Assembly: GCA_016202645.1 (NCBI GenBank)
Contig: JACQOF010000127.1
Span: 135,714-181,296, forward strand
DNA length: 45,583 nt
Direction: 5' to 3'
DNA from: a bacterium
GTDB lineage: Bacteria > Lindowbacteria > 2-12-FULL-62-27
This document shows, piece by piece, positions 4,101-40,500 of this stretch. Below the pieces are notes generated by a model, which ran no database searches, was not told the DNA's origin, and was given only the letters and a program-made list of their open reading frames with translations. The translations under genes and the position numbers were made by a program. Numbering within the stretch: the first letter of the stretch is position 1; the number at the start of each line of letters is the position of its first letter.

Positions 4101-5692
4101 ACGCGCGGGCCCGCCGAGGCCGCCAGGACCTCCCGCAGGCGGTCCGGCCAGGTCTTGCAGATTTCCGCGAGTTCCCGCTCCAGTTCTGTAAAAGACTTGC
4201 CGGCCGGAGTCTTGCGCCCGGTGACGCAGAAAAAATATAACCGCGCGAAATCGCCGCCCTCGGTTCCCATCGACAGCGAATAGTCGATGGACGCCGCCTC
4301 CAGACGCCGCCGCAGGACCGCCTCCATTCTGGCTCGCGCGTCGGTGTTGAACTTCTCCTTCGGCATCACCACCATCACCGATATCCCGCGTCCCCGGAGG
4401 TCCGGCCGGAAGGTCGCCTTGAAATCCAACTTGCTCTGGGCAACCAGGGCCGTCCGGATTTCCCGGCGAAGATCATCCACGGACGCCCCGAAGAGGAGGT
4501 CCTTGGGATAGCCCGCGAAAATCCCGTAGATCTCCCGGAAATCATGCGAATGCGCCTGCACCCCCTCCGCCTGGATCACCGCTTCGAATTTTTTCCGGAG
4601 TATCGGAATGTCGGTCGATGGAAGACCCTCGACGCGGTTCGTGAACAACCCCTGGATCCGCCGCTCGCCGGCCAGCCGCCCGGCGCCGTCAAAAATTTTC
4701 TGGCCGATGTAGGCCATCGGCTCCCGGCGGTAGATCGGCGACAGCGCCGATGTCTGCGCGACAACGAGGGAGGCACCCTGAAGTTTCAGGCCGCGGCGCA
4801 GGGACGGGACCACCCGGGTCAGAGGCACCGGCCGGTAAAACCGCGAGATGCGTTCGGCCCGGAGAATGCCAAGCCCGCTGCCGCGCCGGAGAGAAAAATA
4901 TTTCCGGCCGCGCTTGTTCGCAAGATTGTATTCCCGATATCCAAGCAGGATGAAATTCCCGTCCAGAAGCCACGTGAGAAACTCCGCTTCTTCACGCCGG
5001 GCGTCAGGGTCTGTATCCGAACGCTTTTCGATATCCGAACGCATCGCCACCGTCGCCGCCCTCATCCGGTCAAAATCCCGAACGACGTGGCGGATGTCGG
5101 CGTAAATAGACTCCAGCGACGTCTCAATCTGCCGGAGCCGCCTCGCATCCTCCACCCGGTCGACTTCCACATGGATCAGGGACTGTCCGGGTTCGCCCGG
5201 CCCGATCTGAACCGGCGTTATCCCGCCTCCGCGTTCGACGCGGATCGGAAGAATGGGATGGACAAGATGCACGACGTTGAGTCCCAGCCCGCGGAGACAC
5301 TCCCGGACGCTCGCGACATAAAATGGACCGTCCCTGGCCGAAATCTGCAGGACCGTCCGATCCGATGAAAATCCGGCCGGCGTCAGAGACGCCGGCACTT
5401 GGGGCCTCGGAGAGGCTGATCCGTCCTTTTTTTCCTCGGGATTGAATACCGCGACCCCAACACCCGTTCGCAGACTGAGCGCCATGACCCGGCGGGCGCT
5501 GTGGAGGATGGACGCCAGGTCCCCGGCGCTGTAGCCGAGCACAAAACCATCTGGTGCGTTTTTAAAGAAATGCGGCGCCACCGTCAACAGTTCACGGCCC
5601 GGGCGGCCCCCCCGGCTGAGCAACCGGCGAACCTCCCGCAACCGGCCGGCCACCGGCGGAAAACGAATCGTTACTGCGGTCGGGACTGACAT
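1115..5692 (-). CDS. gdhB: NAD-specific glutamate dehydrogenase, giant type
   Basis: This protein of about 1525 residues belongs to the bacterial NAD-glutamate dehydrogenase family (the 1500-1650 residue type known from Streptomyces and Pseudomonas). It oxidises glutamate to 2-oxoglutarate and ammonia in the cytoplasm. The catalytic block is clear: ARGGIRLSDRRDDYRTEVLG near residue 835, PVGAKGGFVIK near 870 with the catalytic Lys region, DPYLVVAADKGTAKYSDVAN, then ASGGKDGYDHKKLGITARG. The long N-terminal part is the family's regulatory region. I prefer the ATG at 5692, behind a weak GAGAA; a GTG at 5704 would add four residues. Two palindromic insertions sit in non-conserved linkers: a family A repeat near residues 93-109 and a GC-poorer hairpin near residue 1418. 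Neither breaks the frame. No neighbour is functionally linked. The gdhB symbol follows Pseudomonas usage. Confidence 0.93.
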   Translation of the reverse strand: MSVPTAVTIRFPPVAGRLREVRRLLSRGGRPGRELLTVAPHFFKNAPDGFVLGYSAGDLASILHSARRVMALSLRTGVGVAVFNPEEKKDGSASPRPQVPASLTPAGFSSDRTVLQISARDGPFYVASVRECLRGLGLNVVHLVHPILPIRVERGGGITPVQIGPGEPGQSLIHVEVDRVEDARRLRQIETSLESIYADIRHVVRDFDRMRAATVAMRSDIEKRSDTDPDARREEAEFLTWLLDGNFILLGYREYNLANKRGRKYFSLRRGSGLGILRAERISRFYRPVPLTRVVPSLRRGLKLQGASLVVAQTSALSPIYRREPMAYIGQKIFDGAGRLAGERRIQGLFTNRVEGLPSTDIPILRKKFEAVIQAEGVQAHSHDFREIYGIFAGYPKDLLFGASVDDLRREIRTALVAQSKLDFKATFRPDLRGRGISVMVVMPKEKFNTDARARMEAVLRRRLEAASIDYSLSMGTEGGDFARLYFFCVTGRKTPAGKSFTELERELAEICKTWPDRLREVLAASAGPRVADRLFKKYGTAFSVEFHNHTPPQGAQHDILMLEKLKDPGDIHVDIFNSKADPDCSRLKLYHLRTKLVLSDIMPVLTHHGFRVVDEMSNSVRPPASAGDLPMAFIHTFRLQSAAGKIDVERLGAILSESIVESLDGRIECDALSSLTLLAGLQLREVLMLRLYRNYLHQIVPAYTLRSIDAALVENPAVARILTDLFIARFDLAFGPPRSVHREKRESDQVDLLEEALNSVDDLLEDRILRLVADAIRATVRTNYFQTPIRQTLGMKIRSADIHAMPRPVPLFEIFVQDSHVEGIHLRGGLIARGGIRLSDRRDDYRTEVLGLMKTQMVKNAVIVPVGAKGGFVIKRGGTPRDAVEGYRRFIRTLLDLTDNMIGGRVIQPVGCVIHDEPDPYLVVAADKGTAKYSDVANDISLSAGFWLGDAFASGGKDGYDHKKLGITARGVWVCLRHHLNMRAHAGSLTCVAIGDMAGDVFGNGMIWGPETRTLKLLAAFNHKFIFLDPNPNARKAWLERRRLFRMPQSNWNDYDTKAISKGGGVSLRSSKRLNLSPEAARLLGVPVHGVSGEDVIRAILKMDVDLLYNGGIGTYVKATEERHPDVGDPINDRVRVNASEVRAKIIGEGGNLGLTQAARIEYARAGGRINTDAVDNSAGVDLSDHEVNLKILLREMRVPAARGRRMLRGLTGPVTARVLEDNESQSRVLSLEERRSLRQIEVYPKLMDALKDRQGMSREIEGLPSDREISERAKKSQSFWRPELAVLLAYVKLAVNRDLLEDVAPKTSLSADPVLGPFLQAYFPRKIVRSFGRRLTGHPLADQIVAAAAANAFVNRAGLTAAFRLAEDCDVSWSRAVRAYFVAERLTGAESIRSAAARTRMSVPESSTQGNARDGISFTQSRGRIETLDELEENLFEITRWILKEYAQQDVTAALETFGHLTRLLPIAESLLSVAERKIFREYHRRIRNLGVPPTAARRLTEIHTAPHLLDLQVAGRRLRKLR
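1436..1459. repeat. Perfect 10-bp inverted repeat inside the glutamate dehydrogenase gene
   Basis: GGAAATGCCA and TGGCATTTCC face each other across a 4-base loop. CTGAGT occurs on both sides, at about 1426-1431 and 1460-1465. It encodes a Ser/Thr/Gly-rich segment (ESSTQGNARDGISF) in the C-terminal helical region, which looks like an inserted linker. Confidence 0.6.
5376..5426 (+). repeat. Dispersed palindromic repeat, family A, copy 1 (in the glutamate dehydrogenase gene)
   Basis: The plus strand carries GGCCGGCGTCAGAGACGCCG, followed by GCACTTGGGGCCTCGGAGAG and GCTGATCCG. The first part is a hairpin with CCGGCGTC/GACGCCGG arms. It is antisense to the gene and encodes about 17 residues (SPRPQVPASLTPAG) in an N-terminal linker. 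It matches copies at 32661, 37380 and 38871, in a frame different from all of them. Confidence 0.8.
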
Positions 5693-5734
5693 CGAAGTTC
5701 TCACACGCTAGATCAGGCGCGCGGGTCTGTCAAT

Positions 5735-5833
5735 GTCGGGATGTATCGGGGTATCGGAGTATCGGAGCATTTGGACCAGGGGGCCGTTGGTGTTTCACCG
5801 ATACACCGTTACTCCGATACACCGATACTCTCA
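5735..5833. repeat. Inverted array of GTATCGGN octamers, family D, copy 1
   Basis: About three to four imperfect tandem octamers (GTATCGGG, GTATCGGA, GTATCGGA) face the same octamers in reverse complement across a spacer of about 35 bases. Together they could form a long imperfect stem. The element fills the space between the divergent glutamate dehydrogenase and glycosyltransferase genes. A second copy is at 41405-41490. Confidence 0.75.
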
Positions 5834-5864
5834 GACTTGAATTTTAGGGGCGTTGGGACTTACC

Positions 5865-6830
5865 ATGGGCGCCGTGGACCTGTCGATTGTGATTCCTGTT
5901 CTGAACGAGGAGGGGAACCTCGAGCGGCTGCAAAGCGAGATCGCCGCCGCCGTCGCGCCGCTGGGGCGCGCCTACGAAGTCATCTACGTGGACGACGGCT
6001 CGACCGACCGGAGTTTCGATATCCTGAAGGGGATGGCAGCGCGCGCATCGAATGTTCGGGTGATCCGGTTTCGGAGAAATTTCGGCCAGACCGCGGCGCT
6101 GGCCTGCGGGGCCGAGACAGCAACGGGCGAGACCGTGATTTTTCTCGACGCCGACGGGCAAAACGATCCGGCCGACATTCCGAAACTCCTCGAGACCCTG
6201 GACGATGGATACGACGTCGTTTCCGGCTGGCGGTTTGACCGCAAGGACGACCGGATCACGCGGATTCTGCCCTCGACCATCGCCAATTGGGTCATCTCCC
6301 GGGTCACGGGCGTTCACCTGCACGACTACGGGTGCACCCTGAAAGCCTACCGCCGGGAAATTCTCAAAAATGTCCGGCTCTACGGCGAGATGCACCGGTT
6401 CATTCCCGTCTACGCGAAGCTGGTCGGCGCGCGCATCACGGAGCTGAAGGTCAATCACCGGCCGCGCACCGCCGGGGTCACGAAGTACGGCCTGTCGCGG
6501 ACATTCAAGGTCATCCTGGATCTCTTCACGGCCAAACTCATGACGAGCTACATCACCAAGCCGATCCATTTTTTCGGGGGACTTGGATTCGGCCTCTGCG
6601 GACTCGGGATCCTTTCGGCCGTCGAGACCTTGATCGAAAAACGTCTCATGGGACACTACGTCCACTCCAACCCGTTCATCCTACTCGCCATTTTTCTCTT
6701 CCAGCTCGGTGTTTTGTTCATCCTCATGGGCCTGATCGCCGAGCTCATCATCCGCACCTACCACGAATCGACCGGCAAGGCGGTCTATTTCATCTCGGAC
6801 AGGATCAACATTCAGGGCCATGTCGATTGA
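5865..6830 (+). CDS. GT2 glycosyltransferase with C-terminal membrane anchor (DPM1/ArnC-like)
   Basis: This 321-residue family-2 glycosyltransferase is of the polyprenyl-phosphate sugar transferase type. It would transfer a nucleotide sugar to a lipid carrier at the cytoplasmic membrane. The N-terminal GT-A domain shows SIVIPVLNEEGNL, DDGSTDRS and the DxD-type DADGQNDP. The Y-GCTLKAYRR motif follows in the second half, and two predicted membrane helices lie near residues 225-250 and 265-290. I chose the ATG at 5865; an upstream TTG at 5853 is possible. Its end overlaps gatC by 11 bases, so it heads the gatCAB operon although the functions are unrelated. The lipid-linked sugar could feed the GT-C-like membrane proteins at 25-30 kb, but that is inference. 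Confidence 0.88.
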   Translation: MGAVDLSIVIPVLNEEGNLERLQSEIAAAVAPLGRAYEVIYVDDGSTDRSFDILKGMAARASNVRVIRFRRNFGQTAALACGAETATGETVIFLDADGQNDPADIPKLLETLDDGYDVVSGWRFDRKDDRITRILPSTIANWVISRVTGVHLHDYGCTLKAYRREILKNVRLYGEMHRFIPVYAKLVGARITELKVNHRPRTAGVTKYGLSRTFKVILDLFTAKLMTSYITKPIHFFGGLGFGLCGLGILSAVETLIEKRLMGHYVHSNPFILLAIFLFQLGVLFILMGLIAELIIRTYHESTGKAVYFISDRINIQGHVD

Positions 6831-7110
6831 CCGCAAGACCGTCGAGCACGTCGCCGCGCTTGCGCGCCTCGGGCTGACCGGGGAGGAAAAAACAAAACTC
6901 GAAGCTGAACTTTCCGGCATTCTCGATCACGTCGCACAGCTTTCGAAACTCGAGACCGGCAAGGTCGAACCGCTTTACCACATTCTGCCGATCCAGAACG
7001 TCTTCCGGGAGGACGCCGCATCCCCGGCCGGCGTCCGGGACGATGTGCTCAAGCACGCGCCCGGCGCGCGGCCGCCGTTTTTTGTCGTGCCGAACGTCCT
7101 CGATGAGTAA
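6820..7110 (+). CDS. gatC: Asp/Glu-tRNA amidotransferase subunit C
   Basis: The 96-residue GatC wraps around GatA and GatB in the amidotransferase that converts misacylated Glu-tRNA(Gln) and Asp-tRNA(Asn) to the Gln and Asn forms. The N-terminal pattern VEHVAALARLGLTGEEKTKL and the ending FFVVPNVLDE are typical, and the length matches the family. It starts inside the end of the glycosyltransferase gene, and its final bases (ATGAGTAA) contain the gatA start. This points to translational coupling through gatC-gatA-gatB. Confidence 0.95.
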   Translation: MSIDRKTVEHVAALARLGLTGEEKTKLEAELSGILDHVAQLSKLETGKVEPLYHILPIQNVFREDAASPAGVRDDVLKHAPGARPPFFVVPNVLDE

Positions 7111-8605
7111 AACCGGCCTGGACCTTTCCGCCTGTCAGCTGGCAGACGCGATCCGCGATGGGGAACTGAGGGCGGCGGACGTCTGTGGAACGTTTCTCGA
7201 ACATATCCGGGAACAGGATCCAAAACTTCAGGCTTTCGTCACCGTGCTGGAGGACGACGCGATGCGGCAGGCCGAGTCGGTCGACCGGGACCACTCCCAC
7301 GCGGGCGCGGCGCTGCTTCGCGGCGTGCCGATCGCGCTCAAGGACAACCTCTGCACGCGAGGTGTTCCGACGACCTGCTCCTCAAAAATTCTGGAGGGGT
7401 TCGTGCCGCCCTACGACGCGACGGTGGTGGCGCGCCTTCGGGGCGTGACGCCGTTTCTCGGCAAGACCAACCTCGACGAGTTCGCGATGGGATCGTCCAC
7501 CGAAAATTCCGCCCTCTTTGAAACCCGCAACCCGCACGACCCCGGGTGTGTTCCGGGCGGTTCTTCCGGCGGATCCGCCGCCGCCGTCGCTTCCGGCATG
7601 GCGCCCCTCGCGCTCGGGTCCGACACCGGCGGATCGATCCGCCAGCCCGCGGCCTTTTGCGGAGTTGTCGGCCTGAAACCGACCTATGGCCGCGTGTCCC
7701 GCTACGGCCTCATCGCATTCGCCTCCTCTCTCGACCAGATCGGCCCCTTCGCCCGCACGGCCGAGGACGCGGCGCTTCTCCTCGACGCCATCGCCGGACC
7801 CGACCCGCGCGACGCCACGTGTCTGGCGACAGCCGCGCCGTCTTGCCGCGCAGCGTTATCGAAACCGTTTGAAAAATTGCGAGTGGGCCTGCCCCGCGAA
7901 TATTTTCAGGAGGGTCTTTCGGCGCCGGTTGCGCAGGCGCTGGCGGCGACGCGCCAGTCCCTGCAGGACCTCGGATGCTCGATGGTGGATGTGTCTCTCC
8001 CGCACACCGATTACGCCGTGCCGACCTACTACATCCTCGCGCCCGCCGAAGCCTCCTCGAACCTCGCGCGGTATGATGGCGTGCAGTACGGACTCCGGGC
8101 GCCGGCCGGGAACTTGATCGAACAGTATCTGAACACGAGATCCGCGGGATTCGGCCGCGAGGTCAAACGCCGGATCATGCTTGGCACCTACGCGCTCTCT
8201 TCCGGCTATTATGACGCGTACTATCTCAAGGCCCTGAAAGTCCGCCGGCTGATTCATGACGATTTTTCCAAAGCCTTCGCCCAGGCCGACGTGCTTCTCA
8301 CGCCCACCACGCCGACGGCCGCGTTCCGGTTCGGCGAAAAAGTTTCCGACCCTCTGCAGATGTATCTCTCGGACATCTTCACCATCTCCGCCAACCTCGC
8401 GGGCCTGCCCGCCCTATCCTTCCCCTGCGGAATGGACGGTCATCTCCCCATCGGCGCGCAACTCATCGGTCCCGCGCTTTCCGAAGCGCGGCTCCTGCGG
8501 ATCGTCCACGAGTACCAGAAGGACACCAACTGGCACCTTCGGAGACCCCAGTCCATCCTGCGAAGCCCCCAGAAGCGCAAGCGTACTCCAGGCGAAGCAG
8601 GATGA
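7103..8605 (+). CDS. gatA: Glutamyl-tRNA(Gln) amidotransferase subunit A
   Basis: The 500-residue amidase-signature subunit releases ammonia from glutamine for transamidation. The Ser-cisSer-Lys triad is visible: the Lys of PIALKDNL (near 80), the Ser in GGSSGGSAAAVASG (near 154) and the Ser in GSDTGGSIRQPAA (near 178). The ATG at 7103 lies within the end of gatC and gives the expected MSKTGLDLSACQLADAI start. The stop overlaps the gatB start as ATGA. The last 15 or so residues (RSPQKRKRTPGEAG) are not conserved in the family. They come from a short repeat-like sequence shared with the 5' end of rpe (family E). Confidence 0.97.
   Translation: MSKTGLDLSACQLADAIRDGELRAADVCGTFLEHIREQDPKLQAFVTVLEDDAMRQAESVDRDHSHAGAALLRGVPIALKDNLCTRGVPTTCSSKILEGFVPPYDATVVARLRGVTPFLGKTNLDEFAMGSSTENSALFETRNPHDPGCVPGGSSGGSAAAVASGMAPLALGSDTGGSIRQPAAFCGVVGLKPTYGRVSRYGLIAFASSLDQIGPFARTAEDAALLLDAIAGPDPRDATCLATAAPSCRAALSKPFEKLRVGLPREYFQEGLSAPVAQALAATRQSLQDLGCSMVDVSLPHTDYAVPTYYILAPAEASSNLARYDGVQYGLRAPAGNLIEQYLNTRSAGFGREVKRRIMLGTYALSSGYYDAYYLKALKVRRLIHDDFSKAFAQADVLLTPTTPTAAFRFGEKVSDPLQMYLSDIFTISANLAGLPALSFPCGMDGHLPIGAQLIGPALSEARLLRIVHEYQKDTNWHLRRPQSILRSPQKRKRTPGEAG
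8555..8582 (+). repeat. Short shared motif, family E, copy 1 (gatA 3' end)
   Basis: ATCCTGCGAAGCCCCCAGAA, then GCGCAAGC, matches the sense strand of the 5' end of rpe (42147-42174) at about 24 of 28 positions. Both encode I-L-R-S-P-Q. A nearby GCGAAGCAGGA (8592-8602) could pair with its TCCTGCGAAG. Confidence 0.45.
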
Positions 8606-10047
8606 AGTACGAACCCGTGATCGGCCTGGAGGTCCACGTCCAGCTCAAGACCGCGTCAAAAATTTTCTGCTCCTGCTCCACCGAATTCGGCCGGGAACCG
8701 AACCTCAACACCTGTCCCGTGTGCATGGGGCTTCCCGGGAGCCTCCCCGTGCTGAACCGCCGGGCCGTCGACCTGGCGATATCGGCCGCTCTGGCCCTGG
8801 ACTGCCGCATCTCGCCGTTTTTCAAGTTCGACCGGAAGAATTATTTTTATCCCGATCTGCCGAAGGCCTACCAGATATCCCAATACGACCTGCCTCTCGC
8901 CACCGGCGGGCGGCTCGAAATTTCCGCAAACGGATCGTCCCGAAACATCGACATCGAGCGCATCCACATGGAGGAGGACGCCGGGAAACTCGTCCACGCC
9001 GAGCCCGGGCACGGGGTGCCGAAGGGGACGAGTTTTGTCGACTACAACCGCGCCGGCACTCCCCTCATCGAAATCGTCAGCCGGCCGGATTTACGAAGTC
9101 CCGCCGAGGCCCACGCCTACCTCGACGCCCTGAAGCACATCCTCCGGTATCTCGACGTCTCCGATTGTAATATGGAGGAAGGCTCCCTCCGCTGTGACGC
9201 CAACGTGTCGATCCGTCCGGCGGGCGAGACGGCGCTGGGCACCCGGTCGGAACTCAAGAATTTGAACTCTTTTAAATTCGTCGAGAAGGCCATCGAGATC
9301 GAGATCGAGCGGCAGACTGAGGTTCTCGAATCAGGCGGACGGGTCATCCAGGAAACGCGTGGATACGATTCGGCGAAAAACACGACCCATCCCCAGCGCA
9401 GTAAAGAGCAGGCGCACGACTACAGGTATTTCCCCGAACCGGACCTTCCGGGATTCACCGTCACGCCGGACCAGATCGAGCGCTTCCGGAGCGCGTTGCC
9501 GGAACTGCCGGCAGCCCGGCGGCGGCGCTTTCAGACAAAGCTAGGTCTTCCGGCCTACGACGCCGAAGTCCTCACGGCCGAATCCGACACGGCGGATTAT
9601 TTCGAGAAGGTCGTCGGGCTTGGCGCCGACCCCAAAAAAACTTCGAACTTCATCATGACCGAACTTCTGTTCAATCTGAAAACCGCCGGCCTCCCCGCCG
9701 GCCGTTCTCCCGTCACACCGGCGCGGCTTGCGGAACTGCTCAAGCTTCAGGCGGACGGCAAAATCAGCGGCAAGATCGCAAAAGATATTTTTCCGGCGAT
9801 GTTCGAGAAGGGCGTATCGGCGCAGGAGGTCCTCAAGGACCAGAAGATCGAACTGATCGCGGACGCTGGGAGCCTGGACGAGCCGATCCGCCAGGTCATC
9901 TCGGAAAATCCAAAGGCGATCGAGGACCTTCGGGCCGGTAAACTCACAGTCCTTGGATTTTTAGTCGGGCAGGTCATGAAGAAAACGAGGGGCCAGGCAG
10001 ACCCAAAAATTGTGCCCCAGGAGCTCAAAAAGCGTCTCGGGATTTGA
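8602..10047 (+). CDS. gatB: Asp/Glu-tRNA(Asn/Gln) amidotransferase subunit B
   Basis: The 481-residue GatB binds and phosphorylates the misacylated tRNA and completes amide transfer with ammonia channelled from GatA. Visible hallmarks are VIGLEVHVQL at the N-terminus, the zinc-type cysteines in CSCSTEF and NTCPVCMGLPG, YFYPDLPKAYQISQYD, and the C-terminal helical GatB/YqeY tail ending in QELKKRLGI. The start overlaps the gatA stop by ATGA. Having all three subunits together implies an indirect route for Gln-tRNA and/or Asn-tRNA in this organism. Its stop lies just before the flgM regulatory region. Confidence 0.97.
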   Translation: MKYEPVIGLEVHVQLKTASKIFCSCSTEFGREPNLNTCPVCMGLPGSLPVLNRRAVDLAISAALALDCRISPFFKFDRKNYFYPDLPKAYQISQYDLPLATGGRLEISANGSSRNIDIERIHMEEDAGKLVHAEPGHGVPKGTSFVDYNRAGTPLIEIVSRPDLRSPAEAHAYLDALKHILRYLDVSDCNMEEGSLRCDANVSIRPAGETALGTRSELKNLNSFKFVEKAIEIEIERQTEVLESGGRVIQETRGYDSAKNTTHPQRSKEQAHDYRYFPEPDLPGFTVTPDQIERFRSALPELPAARRRRFQTKLGLPAYDAEVLTAESDTADYFEKVVGLGADPKKTSNFIMTELLFNLKTAGLPAGRSPVTPARLAELLKLQADGKISGKIAKDIFPAMFEKGVSAQEVLKDQKIELIADAGSLDEPIRQVISENPKAIEDLRAGKLTVLGFLVGQVMKKTRGQADPKIVPQELKKRLGI

Positions 10048-10098
10048 CACGCGCCCGGGACAGTTTGATATCCTATTGATATTCAGAAGGTTTCCGGC

Positions 10099-10126
10099 TA
10101 AAGTTTTGGGTGAGGGTGGCCGATAA
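10099..10126 (+). promoter_or_regulatory. Sigma-28 (FliA) promoter for flgM
   Basis: TAAAGTTT at 10099-10106 and GCCGATAA at 10119-10126 are exact matches to the -35 and -10 boxes of the flagellar sigma factor. The spacer is 12 bases (11 is usual, or 11 if the first box is shifted one base). The flgM start follows 24 bases later. A TTGACA at 10044-10049 could be part of a second, housekeeping promoter, but its -10 is poor. Confidence 0.85.
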
Positions 10127-10150
10127 AGAGGTATAGAGGAGGTAACGCAC

Positions 10151-10456
10151 ATGGTTGTGGAACCCATTCACGGAGGACAGGAAGTCCAGCGCAGTCAGAA
10201 CATCAAGAATAAGGACGCTGCGAAGCTTAATGAAGCCTCCAAGTCTGGCAAATCAAGTGATTCGGTCGAAATCAGCGGAGCGGCCAAGGCGGCAGCCAGC
10301 ACGAAATCCGCGATTGACGCGGTGCAGGCGGTGCCCGATCTGGTCCGAAGAGACCGAGTGGAGGCAGCGAGAGAGCGAATCCTTGGCGGCGATTATCTGT
10401 CGCCAAAAGTCGTAGACGAAATAGCGGAAAAGATCGCGAATCTACTGATCAAGTAA
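10151..10456 (+). CDS. flgM: Anti-sigma-28 factor FlgM
   Basis: The 101-residue protein matches FlgM, which binds FliA and holds late flagellar genes off until it is exported through the finished hook-basal body. The N-terminal half is low-complexity and probably disordered, with SDSVEISGAAKAA typical of the family. The conserved C-terminal sigma-binding helices are VRRDRVEAARERILGGDYLS and PKVVDEIAEKIANLL. A strong AGAGGAGGT lies upstream of the ATG. It is expressed from its own FliA-type promoter, the usual autoregulatory arrangement, and ends in a terminator. No other confirmed flagellar gene is in the window. Confidence 0.9.
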   Translation: MVVEPIHGGQEVQRSQNIKNKDAAKLNEASKSGKSSDSVEISGAAKAAASTKSAIDAVQAVPDLVRRDRVEAARERILGGDYLSPKVVDEIAEKIANLLIK

Positions 10457-10466
10457 ACAATCCGCA

Positions 10467-10509
10467 GGGCTTTCATGAGATCCGCCAGGGGCGGGCCGCA
10501 TGAAAGTCC
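10467..10509 (+). other. Hairpin in the flgM 3' untranslated region
   Basis: GGGCTTTCATG (10467-10477) can pair with CATGAAAGTCC (10499-10509) around a GC-rich loop that could itself pair (CCGCC/GGCGG). It sits between the flgM stop and the terminator, so it would be in the mRNA 3' end. Confidence 0.5.
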
Positions 10510-10550
10510 GGCTTAATCCATACCATCATATCCTGTTGTTTGTGTTCCAA

Positions 10551-10595
10551 AGAGAGCTTGGGCCGGCGTTTCAATTCCGAGCTCTCTCTTTTTTT
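10551..10595 (+). terminator. Rho-independent terminator after flgM
   Basis: AGAGAGCTTGG pairs with CCGAGCTCTCT (11 positions, one G-T pair) around a 14-base loop. A run of seven T follows at 10589-10595. Confidence 0.9.
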
Positions 10596-10599
10596 GGGG

Positions 10600-10742
10600 A
10601 GCCCCCTACAACCTTCAGATGTCAGGAAAAAAAAAGACCACGGTGGGGCGGTCAAGCGCGGGGGAGAAAAAGTAGAATGATCAGGTTATCAAATGGCCGC
10701 GCTTGCCGTATGCCCCATCGTGGTTCAAATCAGCACTCCAAA
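10600..10742. other. Intergenic stretch with no recognised feature
   Basis: This stretch lies between the flgM terminator and the small minus-strand reading frame. It has a purine-rich patch near 10625-10680 but no convincing gene, RNA or repeat. The GGTTCAAATC near 10723 is not part of a tRNA. Confidence 0.4.
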
Positions 10743-10913: not shown

Positions 10914-11040
10914 AATCCATCACCATCCTGAAATCTCATCGGGCCCGATCGAAGAGGGGGCCCACACCCTCCCGAAACATCAGGTCGTATAGGGGTAAGT
11001 GTTCAGGTAAAGTTTGAGAAAGTCAAATTCTTTTTTGGAT

Positions 11041-18113: not shown

Positions 18114-18270
18114 CGCAACTATTCAGGCCGGCATGCCCGCCCCGTGGCTGTCATTCCCGCGAAAGCGGGAATCCAGCGCGGGGTAAACTCCAGCGGGCAT
18201 CCGGATCAATCGCAGAGCAGACTGGATTCCCGCTTTCGCGGGAATGACACCAGGAGCCGAATAGTTACGC
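18114..18270. repeat. MITE-like repeat, family B, copy 1
   Basis: The outer ends are inverted: GCAACTATTC (18115-18124) and GAATAGTTAC (18259-18268). Inside are two facing 27-bp arms, at 18150-18176 and 18222-18248. Each arm is itself a hairpin of the form ATTCCCGC-GAAA-GCGGGAAT. The element lies between ilvN and ilvC and carries no gene. The inner GTCATTCCCGCGAAAGCGGG motif is widespread in bacteria as an extragenic repeat. Confidence 0.85.
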
Positions 18271-22282: not shown

Positions 22283-22318
22283 TTTGTAATCGGCCGGTGA
22301 ACAGTGGTTTTGTAAAAA

Positions 22319-22412
22319 CTCCTCCCCCCTTGAGGGGGAGGTTGGGAGGGGGGTTCCACAAAAGCGCCGTGCCGATACCCCCCATCCACCTTCCCCCTCA
22401 AGGGGGGAAGAG
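22319..22412. repeat. G-rich palindromic repeat, family C, copy 1
   Basis: CTCCCCCCTTGAGGGGGAGG forms a hairpin. After a G-run, CCCCCCATCCACCTTCCCCC and TCAAGGGGGGAAGAG complete a larger inverted structure. The same layout occurs at 42657-42752. This copy lies between leuA and the 839-residue cyclic-nucleotide-binding gene. Confidence 0.8.
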
Positions 22413-22471
22413 CTTATATGCCCCCTTTTACCGACCTGATTCTTTGATTTTCTCCGCCCAGTGGATGTCCG

Positions 22472-24993: not shown

Positions 24994-25084
24994 GTTACGA
25001 TTCAGCCTTCCGCGTCATTCCCGCGAACGCGGGAATCCAGTCCGCCCGGCGATCATCTGGATTCCCGCGTTCGCGGGAATGACG
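24994..25084. repeat. MITE-like repeat, family B, copy 2 (right end lost)
   Basis: The left end reads GGTTACGATTCAGCC. The two 27-bp facing arms are at 25014-25040 and 25057-25083, here with GAAC/GTTC loops. The right terminal GAATAGTTAC of the other copies is missing. The element begins three bases after a stop codon. Confidence 0.8.
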
Positions 25085-26634: not shown

Positions 26635-26764
26635 CGTTACTATTCAGCCCTCTCCGTCATCTCCGCCCCGGATCTGTCATTCCCGCGAAAGCGGGAATCC
26701 AGATTGCTTTGCGATTAGTCTGGATTCCCGCTTTCGCGGGAATGACGACCTGGTAATAGTTACG
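26635..26764. repeat. MITE-like repeat, family B, copy 3
   Basis: The left end is CGTTACTATTCAGCC and the right end is GTAATAGTTACG. The nested 27-bp arms are at 26676-26702 and 26720-26746. The final G is the first base of the GTG start of the next gene. With copy 2 it brackets the TPR membrane gene. Confidence 0.85.
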
Positions 26765-31289: not shown

Positions 31290-31325
31290 GAAAAAAGTAT
31301 GTTACAGGCTGGCCCAGATTGTCAA

Positions 31326-33182
31326 TCAACCCTCCGGTCCGGAACGGGACAGCAGCCAGGCGTCGTACCGGGCGCTGTTTTTGTTAAAAATCGAGTACTC
31401 CAGAAATTTTTGCCGGACCTGAGGCCCGTAAAATTCCCGGATCAGGGCGGCCAATTCCGAATATTTCTCCGCGGGGCCGGCCCTTCCGGCAAGATGCGCG
31501 GCATCCGCCATGCGGTCATAGACCCGCGCGGCGCGGGGCTCAAACTGCAGGACCCGGTGAAATCGCCAGTCGCGTTCCCGTTCCGTGCGCGACCAGTCCG
31601 CCGCCTCCATGGCCATGGGCTGGTCACAGGTCTGAAGTTGGCCCAGGGACAGAATGAACTGCCGGCCCTTCTGGTAGAATGGCCCGCGGGATTCGGCACC
31701 GGCCAGTATCCGGTACATCCGGGAGCCGTGGTAGAGAACCGCTGAGGGATTTTCACTCCTTTCCAACGCGGACTCGATCGACCGGTCGGCCAGATCGGCA
31801 TGGCCGGCCCGGACCGCCGCCTGGGCGAGGTGGAGGCGCGGCTGTTCGTCCCACGGCCTGAGCCGGGCCGATTCTTCGTAGGACGCCATCGCTTCCGGAA
31901 GTCTTTCCGCCGATTCCTCATTCATGCCGGCGCGCATCGACTGTCGGGCGAAGAGGTCCTGGATGCCCGTGTAGAGTAGAAAGGCGCCGACGAGCACCAC
32001 GGAGAGTCGAAACAGCGCCGTCGACCTGCGCATCATGACCACGGACACATCCGCCGTCAGAGCGACCAGACCGACCAGTCCCATCCAGCGGATCGGCGCT
32101 AGAGTTTCTGTAATGTTGACCATGAGTTCGAAAATAAACGCGGGCGCCCAGATGAGGCCGGCGCGGCGCGGCCAGTCCGCGCCCGGCGCGGCGGCGCATC
32201 TTTGAACGAGCCGCGCGGCGCAGATTAGAAACGCCAGGCACGTCGCGATGCCCAGGATGCCGCTTTCCGCCGCCCACTGCAGAAGCACATTGTGCGCGTG
32301 GTGGTTGATCCTGGCAAACTGCGCCAGGATCCGCGGATCCGTCACCGGGAACTCTCTGGACATCATTTCCGTGGAAAACATTCCCAGGCCAGATCCGCCC
32401 GGATCATTTGAAAAAATGTTCAGAGCCATAAAAAAAATCCGGGGCCGGAGTTCCGCCAATGGATTCATTTCGACCCGCGCCGCCGTCAAGGCAAGAACCG
32501 CCGCTAGGGCGGCGGCGCCCACCGCCACCGCCATGCGCCGCGCGGACAAGTGGATCCAGAGATACGCGAGGAATACCAGTCCCAGGCCAAGCAGTCCCGA
32601 GCGGCTGCCGTTGAGAAGGATTCCGGCGCACAGGACGGCCGACCACGCCCACCGGGTGACCCGGCCGGCGTCAGAGACGCCGGCACCTGGGGCCGCGGAG
32701 CGGCTGACCCGGCCGAGGCGTGCTGCGAGAAGGCTCCCGGCCAGACCGCCGAGCAGAATCTGCGCCTCGGCGCTTCGCATGAGCCCAATGCCCCGGCCCT
32801 GCGCGTTCATTTGAATCTGGATGGCATAGAGAATCGTCAAGATTGCCCCGCACCAGCGGAGGGCCGTAAAAAGGGCCGCCGGCAAGTCATGCCGACCCGC
32901 GAGAAGGGTGGGCAGGAGGATGAAGAGGGATAAAGCGATCAGCCACCAGCCGCAGGCGTGTACAGCCGTCGCGGCAAAAACACGGCCCGTCAGGAGAATC
33001 AGGAGGGCCGGGATGAGAAAAAAACTGAGGAAGTGAATCCGGACAGGATGACGGCCAAGAAGAAGGGCGCCGCACATGACGGCGCCCCCTCCCCACCAGA
33101 AATCAAATAGTTTCCAGTTGTCTGTATAACCGCTGAAGATCAGCGCGACTAGAAAATGGGCGATCAGAATGAGCGCAAGCAC
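31326..33182 (-). CDS. O-antigen ligase/polymerase family membrane protein with TPR tail
   Basis: In this 618-residue protein the first 430 residues are polytopic with a large periplasmic loop, as in the Wzy_C/WaaL family that joins or polymerises envelope glycans. GSGLGMFSTEM followed by NHHAHNVLLQWAAESGILGI is the conserved family motif, including the catalytic-type HxxHN. The last 180 residues carry TPR-like units (MASYEESARLRPWDEQPRLH, then LAQAAVRAG). The GTG start at 33182 follows AGGGAGGGG. A family A repeat encodes RVSRSAAPGAGVSDAGR in a loop between membrane helices. It sits downstream of the pseudopilin gene and upstream of the histidine kinase. Confidence 0.88.
   Translation of the reverse strand: MLALILIAHFLVALIFSGYTDNWKLFDFWWGGGAVMCGALLLGRHPVRIHFLSFFLIPALLILLTGRVFAATAVHACGWWLIALSLFILLPTLLAGRHDLPAALFTALRWCGAILTILYAIQIQMNAQGRGIGLMRSAEAQILLGGLAGSLLAARLGRVSRSAAPGAGVSDAGRVTRWAWSAVLCAGILLNGSRSGLLGLGLVFLAYLWIHLSARRMAVAVGAAALAAVLALTAARVEMNPLAELRPRIFFMALNIFSNDPGGSGLGMFSTEMMSREFPVTDPRILAQFARINHHAHNVLLQWAAESGILGIATCLAFLICAARLVQRCAAAPGADWPRRAGLIWAPAFIFELMVNITETLAPIRWMGLVGLVALTADVSVVMMRRSTALFRLSVVLVGAFLLYTGIQDLFARQSMRAGMNEESAERLPEAMASYEESARLRPWDEQPRLHLAQAAVRAGHADLADRSIESALERSENPSAVLYHGSRMYRILAGAESRGPFYQKGRQFILSLGQLQTCDQPMAMEAADWSRTERERDWRFHRVLQFEPRAARVYDRMADAAHLAGRAGPAEKYSELAALIREFYGPQVRQKFLEYSIFNKNSARYDAWLLSRSGPEG
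32661..32715 (+). repeat. Dispersed palindromic repeat, family A, copy 2 (in the O-antigen ligase gene)
   Basis: CCGGCCGGCGTCAGAGACGC, then CGGCACCTGGGGCCGCGGAG and CGGCTGACCCGGCCG, on the plus strand, antisense to the gene. It encodes GRVSRSAAPGAGVSDAGRV in a membrane-protein loop. It differs from copy 1 at only a few positions and is read in another frame. Confidence 0.85.
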
Positions 33183-33829: not shown

Positions 33830-35251
33830 TCATTGCTTTGACTTTTTGATAGTGCCTTGACAGACAAAATTGACTAATTTTTCCAATTTCATTCGCTGGG
33901 AAGCCTTAAAGAGAAAGAGCGTTCTTTTTCGAGAATGGATCAATTCGAACAGGTCTTCTTCAATGTCCTTCGACGTATTGGAAAACCGAACGGACGAACA
34001 TTTGGCGCCGCTGGACTCGTATCCCCTTTGGAACCATTTGGATTCCGCGCCGATAAAGTACAGACGATCAGGCTGGGCGCCGCCGGCCACAACACCCAGT
34101 TCTCTGTGGTATTTGGCGGTATATCGGCCGAGTTCCAGCATGTCGCCCAAGACCAGGACCAGCCGCATTCCAAACTTCCGGCTCAGCCGCCGCGCCCTTT
34201 CGATGGCAGCTCGCATCGATTCTGGATTGGCGTTGTAACTGTCGTCGACAATGAGATGCGGCCCGGCCCGCAGGACAACGCCGCGGCCGGCCGGAAGGCG
34301 CAGACGGGAGACCGCCGACCTGATTTTTTTTAAAGGCACGGCGAAATGAGAGGCGATGGCGATGGCCAGAAGCACATTCTGGATCTGGTGCGCGCCCATG
34401 TCCGGGCATCGGAACGACCGGTCCCCCGCATCGAATGCGATCGCGGTCCTGCCCTCGCGGACGTTTCCGATCCGCCAATTTGCCCCGGGCGCGCGGCCGA
34501 AGGAAATGACGGATTGACGTTTCGCGCGCGCCTTCAGAAACGGGAAGAACGGCGAATCGATCGGCAGAAACGCGGGGATGCCGGCCCGCGCAGCCGTCAG
34601 AATTTCCGATTTGGCGCGGGCGATTCCCCGGAGTCCGGAAAAAAATCCGGCATGGGCCGGCGCGACGGAGGTGATCGCGACGAGATCGGGGTCGGCGATG
34701 CGCGTGAGCGCGGCGATCTCGCCGGGATGGTTCATCCCGATTTCCAGGACTCCGGCTTGGGTTTTTTCGGTCATCGACAGCAGGGTGAGGGGAACGCCGA
34801 TCGCGTTGTTGAAGCTCCGGGGCGCCGCGACTGTCCGATAGGTTGTCGAGAGCAGCGCCGACACGAATTCCTTGGCGCTGGTCTTGCCGTTCGATCCGGT
34901 GATCGCCACGATTTTTGTTCCGAGTCCGGCGCGATGCCGCCGCGCCAGTTCTCCCAGCGCGGCCGGCGTGTCGGGCGCCGAAACCGCGGCGCCCAGCCCG
35001 GACTCGCGGAGAGACTTGGCGATTTCAGCCCCCCTCGGCTCGATCAGGACCGCGCCCGCGCCGGCCGCGGCGGCCTGAGCCAGAAATTCATGCCCGTCGA
35101 ATCGCTCACCCTTGAGCGCCACAAAAAGTTTCCCCCGGATGTCCGGGTCGCGGCTGTCGATCGTCACGCCGGTCAGCGTCTGCGAGGGATTCCCGAACAA
35201 CAGGCGCGCGCCGGGAAGGTCCGCGGCGGCGGAGACGCAGAGGTCAGGCAT
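33830..35251 (-). CDS. murF: UDP-N-acetylmuramoyl-tripeptide-D-alanyl-D-alanine ligase
   Basis: This 473-residue Mur ligase adds D-Ala-D-Ala to the UDP-MurNAc-tripeptide in the cytoplasm. The N-terminal domain has VTIDSRDPDIRGKLFVALKG, the ATP loop is VAITGSNGKTSAKEFV, and the central domain has NNAIGVPLTLLSM and EIGMNHPGEI. The C-terminal domain has VDDSYNANPESMRAAI. I chose the ATG at 35251 (TTG at 35254 precedes it); the phosphofructokinase stop is seven bases away. It ends the dnaE-accA-pfp-murF run. No other mur gene is here, so it is split from the usual division/cell-wall cluster. Confidence 0.95.
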   Translation of the reverse strand: MPDLCVSAAADLPGARLLFGNPSQTLTGVTIDSRDPDIRGKLFVALKGERFDGHEFLAQAAAAGAGAVLIEPRGAEIAKSLRESGLGAAVSAPDTPAALGELARRHRAGLGTKIVAITGSNGKTSAKEFVSALLSTTYRTVAAPRSFNNAIGVPLTLLSMTEKTQAGVLEIGMNHPGEIAALTRIADPDLVAITSVAPAHAGFFSGLRGIARAKSEILTAARAGIPAFLPIDSPFFPFLKARAKRQSVISFGRAPGANWRIGNVREGRTAIAFDAGDRSFRCPDMGAHQIQNVLLAIAIASHFAVPLKKIRSAVSRLRLPAGRGVVLRAGPHLIVDDSYNANPESMRAAIERARRLSRKFGMRLVLVLGDMLELGRYTAKYHRELGVVAGGAQPDRLYFIGAESKWFQRGYESSGAKCSSVRFSNTSKDIEEDLFELIHSRKRTLFLFKASQRMKLEKLVNFVCQGTIKKSKQ

Positions 35252-35257
35252 CAAGCA

Positions 35258-36526
35258 TCAGGATGAGGCAAGGCGCGTGAGGGGTTCAAAGCGCTGACGG
35301 AACGACTCGGGGGTCATCTTGGCCAGGGCCGCCAGCTTTCCGAGCTTTTCGGGATCTTCCAAGTCGGTTCGTTCCAGCCGGATCATGTATTTGCGGGCGA
35401 TGCGGTAATGGATCGAGGATATGTTCACCATCCGGACGCCCATTTTGCCGGTAGCCGGGTCGATGATCTGATCGAAGGCGATGGGGGTTATGAAGTTTCC
35501 CTGGATCGACACGAGCACGTTGCTGCGGCCCTGCTTCAAAAGTTCCACCGCGGCATAGCCGAGGTGCCGGGAGTACTCGATGTCGAAAGCGACGGGATGC
35601 GCGCACCGGACTTCATATCCGACCACGTGGTCGATCATGCGGAGTTTGATCCCCATTTCGGCGAGGCGCTGTTCCACCCGGTGCTTGACGATCGCGCCGA
35701 ATTTGACTTCCGACAAGAGCATGTGCCCGAACTCGTCCCGGGGGACTTCGTCCAAGTGCTGAAGGTCCGCCGGGTCCATTTTTTCGAGAAGGCCCTCGGC
35801 CAGGACCGCCACGCCGTAGTTCCGGCCGCCGGCGAGCCGTTTGAGGATGGACGTCACGACCAGGTCGGCGACGGTGTCGAGCCGGACGGCCGAATCGAAT
35901 TCCTCCGGGATCAAAATTACCGTCGCCCCGGAGGCCTTGCCGATCCCCAGAGCGAGATGTCCGGCCTTGCGGCCCATCGCCACCACGAGAAACCACCGGC
36001 CGATACTGCGGGCGTCTTCCGCCAGATTCTGGACGATGACCGACCCGACCTGCCGGGCGGTCTCGTATCCGAAGGTCGGAGTGCCCTCCGGGAGGGGCAG
36101 GTCATTGTCGATGGTCTTGGGCACGTGAACGACCCGGAAATCCGCGCGGCGTTCCTCCCGGGCGACGGCGGAAACCCGGGAGGCGGTGAAGGCGGTATCA
36201 TCGCCGCCGATGGAGATGAGGTCGGTGACGCCGATCCGAAGAAGATGGTCGACGACCTGTTTCAATTTTTCGGGATCCTTGCCGGGGTTGGTGCGGGAAG
36301 TCCGCAGGAGGGACCCGCCCCTGTTGTGGATCCGGCTGACGTCGGATATGTCCAGCGGCATCACTTCGGGATTGGGCCCCACGAGGTGCTTGTATCCGTC
36401 CAGAAACCCGATGACCTCCCAGCCGGTGTTGCGCGCCTCGATGGTCGCGGCGCTGATGACGCCGTTGATTCCGGGCGCCGGGCCTCCGCCTACGATGATG
36501 CCGACCAGCCGTTTCGACGCCGCCAT
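35258..36526 (-). CDS. pfp: 6-phosphofructokinase, pyrophosphate-dependent type
   Basis: This 422-residue enzyme phosphorylates fructose 6-phosphate in glycolysis. The phosphate-donor loop is GGGPAPGINGVISAA. ISIGGDDTAFTASRV carries the second Asp (GGDD) and VPKTIDNDLPLPEGTPTFGY carries Lys. Both are signatures of PPi-using enzymes rather than ATP-using ones (GGDG, GTIDND). A PPi-dependent enzyme is reversible and can also serve gluconeogenesis. The ATG overlaps the accA stop (TGATG). The length fits the mid-size clade of PPi enzymes. Donor assignment rests on these two motifs and is not tested. Confidence 0.92.
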   Translation of the reverse strand: MAASKRLVGIIVGGGPAPGINGVISAATIEARNTGWEVIGFLDGYKHLVGPNPEVMPLDISDVSRIHNRGGSLLRTSRTNPGKDPEKLKQVVDHLLRIGVTDLISIGGDDTAFTASRVSAVAREERRADFRVVHVPKTIDNDLPLPEGTPTFGYETARQVGSVIVQNLAEDARSIGRWFLVVAMGRKAGHLALGIGKASGATVILIPEEFDSAVRLDTVADLVVTSILKRLAGGRNYGVAVLAEGLLEKMDPADLQHLDEVPRDEFGHMLLSEVKFGAIVKHRVEQRLAEMGIKLRMIDHVVGYEVRCAHPVAFDIEYSRHLGYAAVELLKQGRSNVLVSIQGNFITPIAFDQIIDPATGKMGVRMVNISSIHYRIARKYMIRLERTDLEDPEKLGKLAALAKMTPESFRQRFEPLTRLASS

Positions 36527-37524
36527 CAGGCCGCTCCGTAACGCCGGAACCGCGCGCGGCGGCTGTCCCGCATCCGGTCAAGCGGCTCCCGGGAAAGTTC
36601 CGTCATGGCCGCCTGCAGGGTCCGGCGGATTTCCGCCGCGGCGGATTCGAGGCCGCGATGGGCGCCGCCGAGAGGTTCGGGAATGACGCCGTCGATGATG
36701 CCCAGTTTCAATAATTCATCCGCGGTCATCTTCAGCGCCGACGCCGCTTCCTGAGCACGCGCCGCATCCTTCCACAAAATGGCGGCGCATCCTTCGGGAG
36801 ATATGACGGAGTAAATGGCGTTCTCCAGCATGTAGATGCGGTCCGCGACGCCCAGGCCCAGCGCGCCGCCGCTGCCGCCTTCCGACACGATCACCGAGAT
36901 GACCGGCACGGCCAGGTCCGAGAGCGCCATCAAATTGACGGCAATCGCCTCCGCCTGCCCGCGTTCCTCGGCGGCCAGGCCCGGGTAGGCGCCGGGGGTG
37001 TCGATGAGGGTCACGACGGGACAGCCGAAGCGTTCGGCCATTTCAAACATGCGGCGGGCCTTGCGGTATCCTTCCGGATGCGACATGCCGAAATTCCGGC
37101 GAAGATTTTCCTGAGTGCCCTTGCCTTTGGCCTGCACCGCCATGACGGCTGTTTTCCCGTCGATGCGCCCGATGCCCGTGATCACCGCCTGGTCATCCCC
37201 GAAGCATCGGTCCCCATGAAGTTCGACGAAATCGTCCACGATGTGCGTCATCATCTGCTGAACGGTGGGCCGCATGGGGTGCCGGGCCATCTGGACGCGC
37301 TGCCAGGGGGAAAGATTCCCGTAGATTTCCTGCTTCTTTCCGGCCAGTTCCGCGTCCAGTTTCCGAATGCGCTCGTCCACCGGCCGGATCAGCCGCTCCG
37401 CGGCCCCAAGTGCCGGCGTCCCCGACGCCGGCCGGCCGGCGGATTTCTCCTCCTGAAGGGATTCCAGTTCGCGATCGAGGGCTTCAATGGGCTGTTCAAA
37501 GTCGTGGTAGAAGAACATCGTCAT
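36526..37524 (-). CDS. accA: Acetyl-CoA carboxylase carboxyltransferase subunit alpha
   Basis: This 332-residue subunit works with AccD to move the carboxyl group from biotin to acetyl-CoA, the first step of fatty-acid synthesis. Family motifs include NLSPWQRVQMARHPMRPTVQ, FVELHGDRCFGDDQAVI, GKGTQENLRRNFGMSHPEGY and the oxyanion region VISVIVSEGGSGGALGLGVA. The ATG at 37524 overlaps the dnaE stop (TGATG), a well-known gene pair. Between the first helix and NLSPWQ it carries about 20 residues (GRPASGTPALGAAERLIRP) encoded by a family A repeat. That stretch is absent from typical AccA proteins and lies in a variable linker. Confidence 0.97.
   Translation of the reverse strand: MTMFFYHDFEQPIEALDRELESLQEEKSAGRPASGTPALGAAERLIRPVDERIRKLDAELAGKKQEIYGNLSPWQRVQMARHPMRPTVQQMMTHIVDDFVELHGDRCFGDDQAVITGIGRIDGKTAVMAVQAKGKGTQENLRRNFGMSHPEGYRKARRMFEMAERFGCPVVTLIDTPGAYPGLAAEERGQAEAIAVNLMALSDLAVPVISVIVSEGGSGGALGLGVADRIYMLENAIYSVISPEGCAAILWKDAARAQEAASALKMTADELLKLGIIDGVIPEPLGGAHRGLESAAAEIRRTLQAAMTELSREPLDRMRDSRRARFRRYGAA
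37380..37440 (-). repeat. Dispersed palindromic repeat, family A, copy 3 (in accA)
   Basis: The minus strand reads GGCCGGCGTCGGGGACGCCG, then GCACTTGGGGCCGCGGAGCG and GCTGATCCGGCCG. It is in the sense orientation of accA, opposite to the other three copies relative to their genes. It encodes GRPASGTPALGAAERLIRP. Confidence 0.85.
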
Positions 37525-40500
37525 CAGACGGATTCCGCCGGGGGTTTGGATTTGAGAAAAAAAACGGAATGAGGGCCCAGAACCGTTTCGAGCCTGCGGC
37601 GAAGATCCGCTGACGGACGGCAACTCCAGCCGAGCCGGAACTCGAATATCCCGCCGCTTTCCGGCATCTCGACGTGGACCGGCCGGTCGCCCGGATGGTC
37701 TTTCAAGATCTGCTTCACTTTCTTCATGGTATCCATTCCCGTTTCCTGATCTAACTTGAGAAAGATGGATTCATAGAGTTTGTCCGGCTGATCCACTCCC
37801 ACAGCCTGATCGGCGAGGAGTGTAACAGACGCGCCTTTTTTTTCAAGACGGCCCCGGAGGAGCAGCGGCATGCCGGGCGTCAGGATGGCCTTGTAACGCT
37901 GGTACGCGTCGGCAAAAAAAATGACGTCGATTTCGGCGTCGCCATCCTCCGCTTTGACAAACGCCATCTCCCGGCCCGCCTTGTCCGTGTGGAGACGGAT
38001 GCCGGTCACAAGCCCGGCCACTGTCACCGGCGCGGACGCGCCGGGGGCCGCGCCCGGAGCATGGGAAGGATCGGATTCCCGGCGGCGGACGCTCGCCGCG
38101 GCGACCAACTCGCCGAGGGGTCCGGAACAAAACTCGGCGATGATGTCCCGCAGGTCATCGAGGGGAGAGCCTGTCGCGAAACAGCCAAGCGCCTCGTGCT
38201 CGAAGAACAGACTCTCCTGCGCGGGGGCAACCCGGGGCCGGTCCGCGGGACTGGATTCAGGCGGCGGCGATGGTTCGTCGAAGAGATCCGTCTGATACGC
38301 TCCGTCGGCGCCCGACCGGCGGATTTTGTCGGACCACATCGGCAGAGACTCGAGAATGGCGCCGCGGGCCGGCCCGAATTCGTCCAGCGCGCCGGACTTG
38401 CAGAGCGCCTCCAGGGATTTGCCCTTGAGCAGTTCCGGGACCTTGATGAGCAGATCCGTGAGATCGTCGAAGGGCCGCGTCCGGAGAATTTCCGAAAGAG
38501 CGGCGTCCGAAAGATGCCGGACGAGGCGCAGTCCCAGCCGGATCACGCCGTTTTCCGGCTGAGGCACGCACTCGAGGCTGGACCGGTTGATGTCCGGAGC
38601 GGCCACCCGCAGGCCGCGCCGCCGGGCTTCCGAAAAAATTTCTCCCAGACGGCGCCGGTCGTCCGTGGATTCGTTGGCGAGAGCGGCCAGAAACGCGGCC
38701 GGGAAATGACATTTGAGATACGCGGCCCGGTAGACCAGCATCGCGTAGGCGACGGCATGCGCCTTGTTGAAGGCGAACGCCCCATGCACGGAAATCTGCG
38801 AGAGTACGGCGGCGGCGGCCGTTTCGGATAGGCCGGTCGCGCGGAGACCGTCGACGAAACGATCGACGGCGGGGGCCCTTGGGGCCGCGGAGCGGCTGAC
38901 CCGGCCGACCGCCAGCCGAAATTCGTCCGCCTCGGCGGCGCTTAAGCCGGACCGGACGGCGCAGTCCATGAGCTGTTCCTGATAGAGAATCAGGCCGAAG
39001 GTTTCCTTCAATCCTGATTCGAACACCGGATGAGGAGGGGTCGGCGCCGAGCGGCCATGCCGGCGCTCGATGTAGGCGGCCGGCACGCCCGCCTCGAGCG
39101 GGCCGGGCCGGTAGAGGGCCAGGGCGGCCGCGAGGGATTCGATGGAGCCCGGCGCCAGGTCCTTGAGGAGGCGCCGCATGCCGGCGCTTTCAAGCTGAAA
39201 AATGCCAAGCGTGCGGCCGGATGCGAGCATCGAAAATGTTGCGGCGTCATTTTGGGGCAGATCGGACAGATCAAGGTCGGCGGCGCCGGCGCGTTTCAGC
39301 CACCGCACAGTCTCGTCCATGACCGCGAGGATCTTCAAGGGCAGGATGTCGAGTTTCTGAAGCCCCAAAGTTTCCAAATCGTCGCCATCGAACTGCAGCC
39401 ACGCCGCGCCGTCGGCGGAGGCGTAGAGTGGGAGCAGGGATTCGCGGCCGGCCGGCACCGCCACCACGCCCGCGGGATGGCCGAGCGATCCGCGAGGAAG
39501 ACCAGCGAGGGTATGGATGGCCGGCGCCCAGTCCGACCAGGGCGGGCGCTCATCCCGGCCAAGCCTGATGGCGCCGTCGGGAAGACTTCGGACTTTGTCG
39601 TCCACTTCCCGGTACGACATCCCGCGGCTCCGCGCGACTTCGCGGAGAGCGGCCTTCAAACCAACCGAGGAACTGCCGCCGGCCCGGAAAGTCCGGATCG
39701 AATCATCGAGCCCGCTCAATATCGCCACCATCCGGTCGCGGCGGCGCTGGTCTACGTCCAAATCGATGTCCGGCATCGTGCGGCGGGCGGGGGAGACGAA
39801 GCGTTCGAACGAAAGACCGTACGCGAGCGGATCGACTTCCGTGATGCCGAGCAGAAACGCCGCGTAAGACCCCGCGGCCGATCCGCGGCCGGGACCGATG
39901 AGAATTCCCTCCCGGCGGGCCTCCGACACCAGCTCGTGGACCCGGAGCATGTAGCCGGAAAGTCCGGCCGCGGCCAGGGCCTTCAGTTCCCGCTCGATGC
40001 GCTCTGTCTGCTCTTCCGTGAGGCGGGACGCGCGGCGCGAGATGATCTCAAGGACAACCGACCGGAGACGCTCTGCCGACTGCGCTTCTGTTTCAGGCGC
40101 CAGACCGGATTGCAGATCGGACAGGCGGACTTTGCAGCGGCCGGCGATTTCGGCGGAAGTTTCGAGGGACTCCGGTACGTCCGCGAAGGCCTCTTTCCAC
40201 TCCGACGCCGTCAGAAGGCCATACGCAGGCTTGAGAAACCGGGACCGGCGCGGGTCAGTCGGAAGTTTTCGCGAGCGCATGTCCATCGCCAGCTGGTGGG
40301 CCTCGGCATCCGCGGAGGAAAGATAATGAACGTCGTTCGTGGCGGCGATCCGGAAGCGGCGGGCCCGGGAAATGCCGCGAATGGCCTCTCGAAGTTCGGC
40401 CTCCTGATCCAGGCCGTGACCCTGCAGTTCCAGAAACACGCGGTCGCGGCCGAATGATTCCAGATAAAATCCCAGAAGTTTTTCCGCACCCGCGCGGTCC

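Follow-up and report, generated by a model that had tools for sequence, protein, structure and literature searches.

A probably mobile family of 48-nucleotide double-hairpin elements inserted in frame in protein-coding genes of Candidatus Lindowbacteria

How can one short palindrome lie inside four protein-coding genes and leave every reading frame open? The question is raised by a 45,583-nucleotide (nt) stretch of a Candidatus (Ca.) Lindowbacteria genome, hereafter the window (GenBank assembly GCA_016202645.1, contig JACQOF010000127.1, positions 135,714–181,296), for which a reading of the letters alone (the original prediction) had proposed a palindromic element that is mobile, peculiar to this lineage and tolerated by proteins. 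That proposal was borne out by dozens of copies in the source genome and its sister genus and by 16 sites with cleanly empty orthologues, and we are highly confident that the copies form a family of non-autonomous, mobile, 48-nt double-hairpin elements. Comparisons were made between the source genome (G000; 2.9 Mb, 146 contigs, 82% complete), Ca. Lindowbacteria bacterium RIFCSPLOWO2_12_FULL_62_27 of a sister genus (G001; MFPR01) and a third member of the same family (G002), with orthologues found by searching concatenated protein queries against the sister genomes and then aligned. Host genes were named from Pfam, NCBIfam and PDB matches and, for some genes with empty sites, from Pfam, PDB or sequence reading.

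Direct reading, a repeat search and these database matches place the four copies of the window where they had been predicted, three of them full-length. The first (5376..5423, +) lies within the GDH_ACT1 domain of an NAD-specific glutamate dehydrogenase (GDH) gene (1115–5704, −) and is translated DGSASPRPQVPASLTPA; its first hairpin (5376..5396, +) has a 9-bp stem and a 3-nt loop, its second (5404..5416, +) is of the GCCTC GGA GAGGC subtype with a 5-bp stem, and the GDH orthologues of G001 and G002 lack exactly these 16 residues. The second (32664..32711, +), translated RVSRSAAPGAGVSDAG, is in a Wzy_C/O-antigen ligase-like gene (31326–33182, −); the weakly similar orthologue of G001 (L218) has a gap of 16 residues here, that of G002 (L207) a messier one. 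The third (37385..37432, −), translated RPASGTPALGAAERLI, is in accA (likely start 37524, −), and the right half of the element (about 38873..38903, +), translated RVSRSAAPRAP, is in dnaE (37524–40946, −). The element is thus sense in accA and antisense in the other three genes, all four being on the − strand; this orientation and the three translations agree with the original prediction. Its further claim that each site is a linker or loop is borne out for AccA, in which AlphaFold2 places the copy in the loop joining the first two helices (residues 31–40 with a predicted local distance difference test score of 57, between helices 8–29 and 42–68), and fails for the dnaE half copy, where native residues are replaced with a net gain of 2 amino acids over Thermus and sister-genome DnaE. 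The Thermus DnaE counterpart of this region (about residue 685) reads GKKRVEEMQKHR.

A genome search for further copies, on which the original prediction had staked itself, found them in abundance. A 60-nt query taken from a single copy gave 36 matches in G000, the best other copies having E values of 1e-19 to 1e-20, and a covariance model trained on 27 copies, with hits under ~30 bits discarded, returned 31 strong copies plus ~10 variants or fragments in G000, ~60 strong copies in G001 and one clear copy in G002. The right-half pattern matched 30 times in G000 and 60 times in G001 and its reversed control 0 times, so that the repetition is far above chance. Weaker covariance hits in M20-peptidase-like genes (C86:21505 and C176 of G002) were rejected, as they fall on a native VGVGDPDTWKWDP motif common to both orthologues. 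Among 84,980 species genomes, a strict 36-nt pattern matched G001 as the sole organism (G000 records were possibly excluded from that set), two of 57 genomes from outside the family gave single weak matches each, with E just under 1e-3, and neither the viral contigs searched nor an Rfam search of the window yielded a match to the element. Judged from these comparisons, the element has so far been seen only in this Ca. Lindowbacteria family, and, in the library searched, no paper naming Lindowbacteria deals with such repeats in its title or abstract. An assembly artefact is very unlikely because the copies are dispersed in two separately assembled genomes.

The strongest evidence for insertion comes from the 16 sites, 7 in G000 and 9 in G001, at which the alignment with an orthologue has a single uninterrupted 16-residue (48-nt) gap. 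The hosts in G000 are a redoxin, an AcrB-family pump, a Crp-family regulator, a response regulator, GDH, AccA and C126:30880, and those in G001 are C1:258119 (sensor-kinase-like), C40:62580, TrmD, C30:39905, an FAD-binding subunit, a redoxin, C43:163749, C37:15549 and C4:465878; at the C75, C76, C118, ACT-domain, histidine kinase and PP2C sites, which are not counted here, the insert is present and the gap is not a clean single one of 16 residues. The redoxin gene has been hit twice independently, at different positions in G000 and G001, and no insertion is common to G000, G001 and G002 among the orthologous sites examined; the insertions therefore post-date the split of the genera or turn over. 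In the response regulator, an empty GAC GGT corresponds to a filled GAC GGA-...-GCC GGT, a gain of 48 nt. The predicted size of about 52 bp is corrected to a net insertion of 48 bp. In the aligned empty sites the net gain equals the length of the element, with no target duplication seen. A classic duplication of the flanking CCG and GCC was considered and rejected, as these bases vary and the element's own ends are constant, which also separates the element from the miniature inverted-repeat elements of DDE insertion sequences, marked by target site duplications and terminal inverted repeats. That the residues are instead ancestral or functional parts of their proteins would fit with the open frames of all hosts and the similarity of the added peptides, but sister-genome, outside-family and PDB homologues lack them and one DNA sequence yields five different readings in unrelated proteins, so that this explanation is scarcely credible. 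For AccA, the residues are absent from the two other family members, 26 outside-family genomes and PDB sequences, and one further sequence is not long enough to decide, which answers the concern, raised with the original prediction, that unrelated orthologues might carry them.

The 48-nt unit reads GCCGGCGTC-nnn-GACGCCGGC / ACTTGG / GGCCGC GGA GCGGC / TGAYCCG and consists of two independent GC-rich hairpins with a conserved ACTTGG spacer between them. Across 93 copies, 97.9% of stem cells are paired, 87 of them with both bases changed, and none of 500 shuffles matched the observed covariation score. Compensatory versions occur in stem 1 (GCCGGCGTC, GCCGATGTC, GTCGGCGTC and GCAGGCGTC) and in stem 2 (GCCGC..GCGGC, GCGCC..GGCGC, GCCTC..GAGGC and GCGTC..GACGC). 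Pairing is as high in genic copies (98.0%) as in the others (97.8%), which suggests that it is as mobile DNA or RNA, and not through the host proteins, that the structure is maintained. Hairpin 2 is mostly of the GCCGC subtype in G000, whereas GCGCC prevails in G001, pointing to separate bursts, and an identical core is found at 12 loci of the copy set. Some G000 copies are of a 57-nt variant, likewise a multiple of three, in which a third hairpin replaces the spacer. A cruciform target was also considered and rejected, the outer helix being 57% paired, near the level expected from GC content.

Alignment of 85 non-nested copies revealed a target specificity extending from −3 to +4, CCG^GCCG, which is the junction of the element's own right and left ends. 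Targets match this junction at a mean of 6.5 of 9 positions, compared with 3.0 of 9 at random sites, and insertion is found on either strand. The flanking base at −4 tracks base 45 of the element, the variable Y near its right end (23 CC, 21 TT, 9 CT and 5 TC; p = 8e-5, or 0.0013 without nested copies). Six copies are nested in the hairpin loop of an older copy, each again as 48 nt. Right-half copies in dnaE, C86:832 and C92:5720 (for the last of which G001 is the sole informative genome) lengthen the protein by only 2–3 residues relative to the closest homologues, and native residues must therefore have been replaced, which a clean insertion would not account for; such copies may reflect a second, template-switch-like event or a later deletion. 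The replacement of host sequence of similar length at these three loci is what would be expected if no transposition were involved and copies arose when replication switched templates at hairpins and short homologies. Against this, full copies are inserted as exactly 48 nt, at loci unrelated to one another and with a defined target motif; as a general explanation, template switching is quite unlikely. Contig C31 of G001 also carries two right-end-only copies, inverted and about 160–200 bp apart (L292, 1666–1937).

Since 48 nt equal 16 codons and five of the six frames are free of stops, a genic insertion keeps the frame and adds 16 residues. By codon-usage score, at least 49 of 97 copies lie wholly within a coding frame that extends past both of their ends, a proportion that is approximate, the remaining copies being at gene ends or unresolved. 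With accA added, antisense copies are read 25 times as RVSASGAPSAGVSDAG, 9 times as GSAPPAPQVPASPTP and 2 times in the arginine-rich frame, and sense copies 11 times as AGVGDAGTWGAGGADP, 3 times as RPASGTPALGAAERLI and 0 times in the arginine-rich frame with TGA, so that unrelated proteins contain five different translations of the element. The three common readings are rich in Gly, Ala, Ser and Pro. The codon phase of available sites fails to explain this strong skew under nine motif definitions (p 6e-4 to 4e-12), even with the stop frame omitted, and a filter on the encoded peptide is the simplest reading. The predicted open frames on both strands are thus present with one exception, the third sense frame, which contains TGA, and the predicted benefit for survival in genes is supported by the bias in frame use, refined in that only three of the five open frames are in common use.

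How the element moves can be stated only tentatively. We favour a route, itself somewhat less likely to be right than wrong, in which the element would form a circular, hairpin-folded, probably single-stranded intermediate, whose junction would be exchanged with junction-like targets, the loops of older copies included, by a trans-acting recombinase or Y1-type transposase. Copies in a wrong frame or place are probably purged by selection. Taken as a whole, a mobile 48-nt double-hairpin family, with this route as its proposed means of spread, is very probably the best explanation of the data. Several observations weigh against it. Precise site exchange would not be expected to leave truncated copies such as that in dnaE; the match at −4 is partial, with A or G tolerated in the flank, so that neither strict site identity nor strict duplication applies; and no enzyme is tied to the element, none of the 24 Y1 loci scanned in the three genomes being flanked by it. 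In addition, movement is deduced from comparisons of genera and not from observation within a species, and the gene calls come from a home-made codon-usage score trained on genes of the window and not from a gene finder.

Y1 transposase (Y1_Tnp) genes, of which the three genomes hold ten, eight and six, also allow a more conventional explanation, namely a repetitive extragenic palindrome (REP) or bacterial interspersed mosaic element moved by REP-associated tyrosine transposases (RAYTs), with the palindrome as a hairpin recognised on single-stranded DNA. IS200/IS605 elements insert precisely beside a short motif without duplication, and the element resembles them in its precise, duplication-free insertion beside a short motif and in that the target motif recurs at its right end. 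However, its right flank is specific as well, whereas that of IS200/IS605 targets is not known to be; G002 has six Y1 genes yet one clear copy; and no orientation bias with GC skew was seen, in a test confounded by gene orientation. REPs carrying GTAG or CGTC tags are short multicopy palindromes, some of them intragenic (PMC3733652), and many copies of a short palindrome, some within genes, are found here too. REPs are nevertheless single hairpins of 20–40 bp with a tetranucleotide tag, mostly intergenic and, for the GTAG type, adjoining RAYT genes, whereas the element has two hairpins, ends in GCC and CCG without a GTAG tag, lies within genes in about half of its copies and does not flank any of the Y1 loci. 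Overall, movement by RAYTs is improbable. An IS110 link was rejected, as G000 has no IS110 copy, G001 one and G002 two.

Yeast mitochondrial GC clusters such as GC42 offer another parallel, being GC-rich palindromes of ~40–50 nt that can merge and shuffle, whose spread involves no known enzyme and for which RNA-mediated copying is suspected (PMC4478555). Like these clusters and double-hairpin elements, the Lindowbacteria element is built of GC-rich modular hairpins and nests or merges; it differs in residing in a bacterial genome instead of mitochondria, in having no duplication instead of the putative AG duplication, and in being about half genic. Group II introns with reverse transcriptase are present in the element-rich G000 and G001, with none strong in G002, which would fit an RNA route in which the element is copied by the intron enzyme. 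Right-end copies that have lost their left parts would suit such copying, but truncation also occurs on the right side (L297), nearly all copies are complete and have precise ends, and a correlation cannot be drawn from three genomes; the RNA route is rather unlikely. The introns of G000 and G001 (L302 and L303) are closely similar.

The precedent named by the original prediction, the Rickettsia palindromic elements (RPEs), proved apt for behaviour only. RPEs and Wolbachia palindromic repeats are small palindromes that occur both intergenically and, in frame, within conserved and often essential genes, with no mobilising enzyme known (PMC2229807, PMC10969869), and the element likewise lies in frame within protein genes, essential ones among them, whose orthologues lack the insert. 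RPEs are, however, 105–146 bp long, with ~12-bp terminal inverted repeats and one long stem-loop, and occur in Rickettsia (with relatives in Wolbachia), whereas the element is 48 nt, GC-rich and duplication-free, has two separate hairpins with an outer helix only 57% paired and was matched by the strict pattern in Ca. Lindowbacteria only; no sequence relation is claimed. A right-end pattern search and the inspected copies gave full, nested and truncated forms only, with no long autonomous parent seen in these incomplete genomes. The element combines RPE-like behaviour with a structure recalling GC clusters and double-hairpin elements and belongs fully to neither. It is conceivable, though on balance unlikely, that it represents a new class of prokaryotic mobile element that, without duplicating its target, integrates precisely where the sequence mimics its own circle junction and whose length and stop-poor frames have been selected for survival inside translated genes.

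Palindromes lying in frame in protein genes have mainly been regarded as a Rickettsia peculiarity, and their movement there is unsolved. A presumably unrelated element in an uncultured phylum behaves in the same way with cleaner boundaries, as seen in the exactness of the unit, the empty sites, the target motif and the covariation of the structure, and this makes the mechanism testable with one synthetic 48-mer. The copies also amount to a natural loop-insertion experiment, in which a near-identical 16-residue linker has been placed in TrmD, AccA, an AcrB-type pump, a receiver domain and many other proteins.

The window contains further repeats. A second, REP-like repeat, GTCATTCCCGCG..CGCGGGAATCCAG, forms three inverted pairs (18149–18249, 25013–25084 and 26676–26746) and is also found near the Y1 transposase locus L240. 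A third dispersed palindromic repeat, CCCCCTTGAGGGGG..CCCCCTCAAGGGGG, occurs at 22313–22418 and 42653–42748, the two copies being 74% identical. Arrays of 8-bp units (CTCCGATA/CACCGATA) are present as inverted repeats at 5735–5837 and 41405–41495, the latter directly after the RNase P RNA gene (41011–41397).
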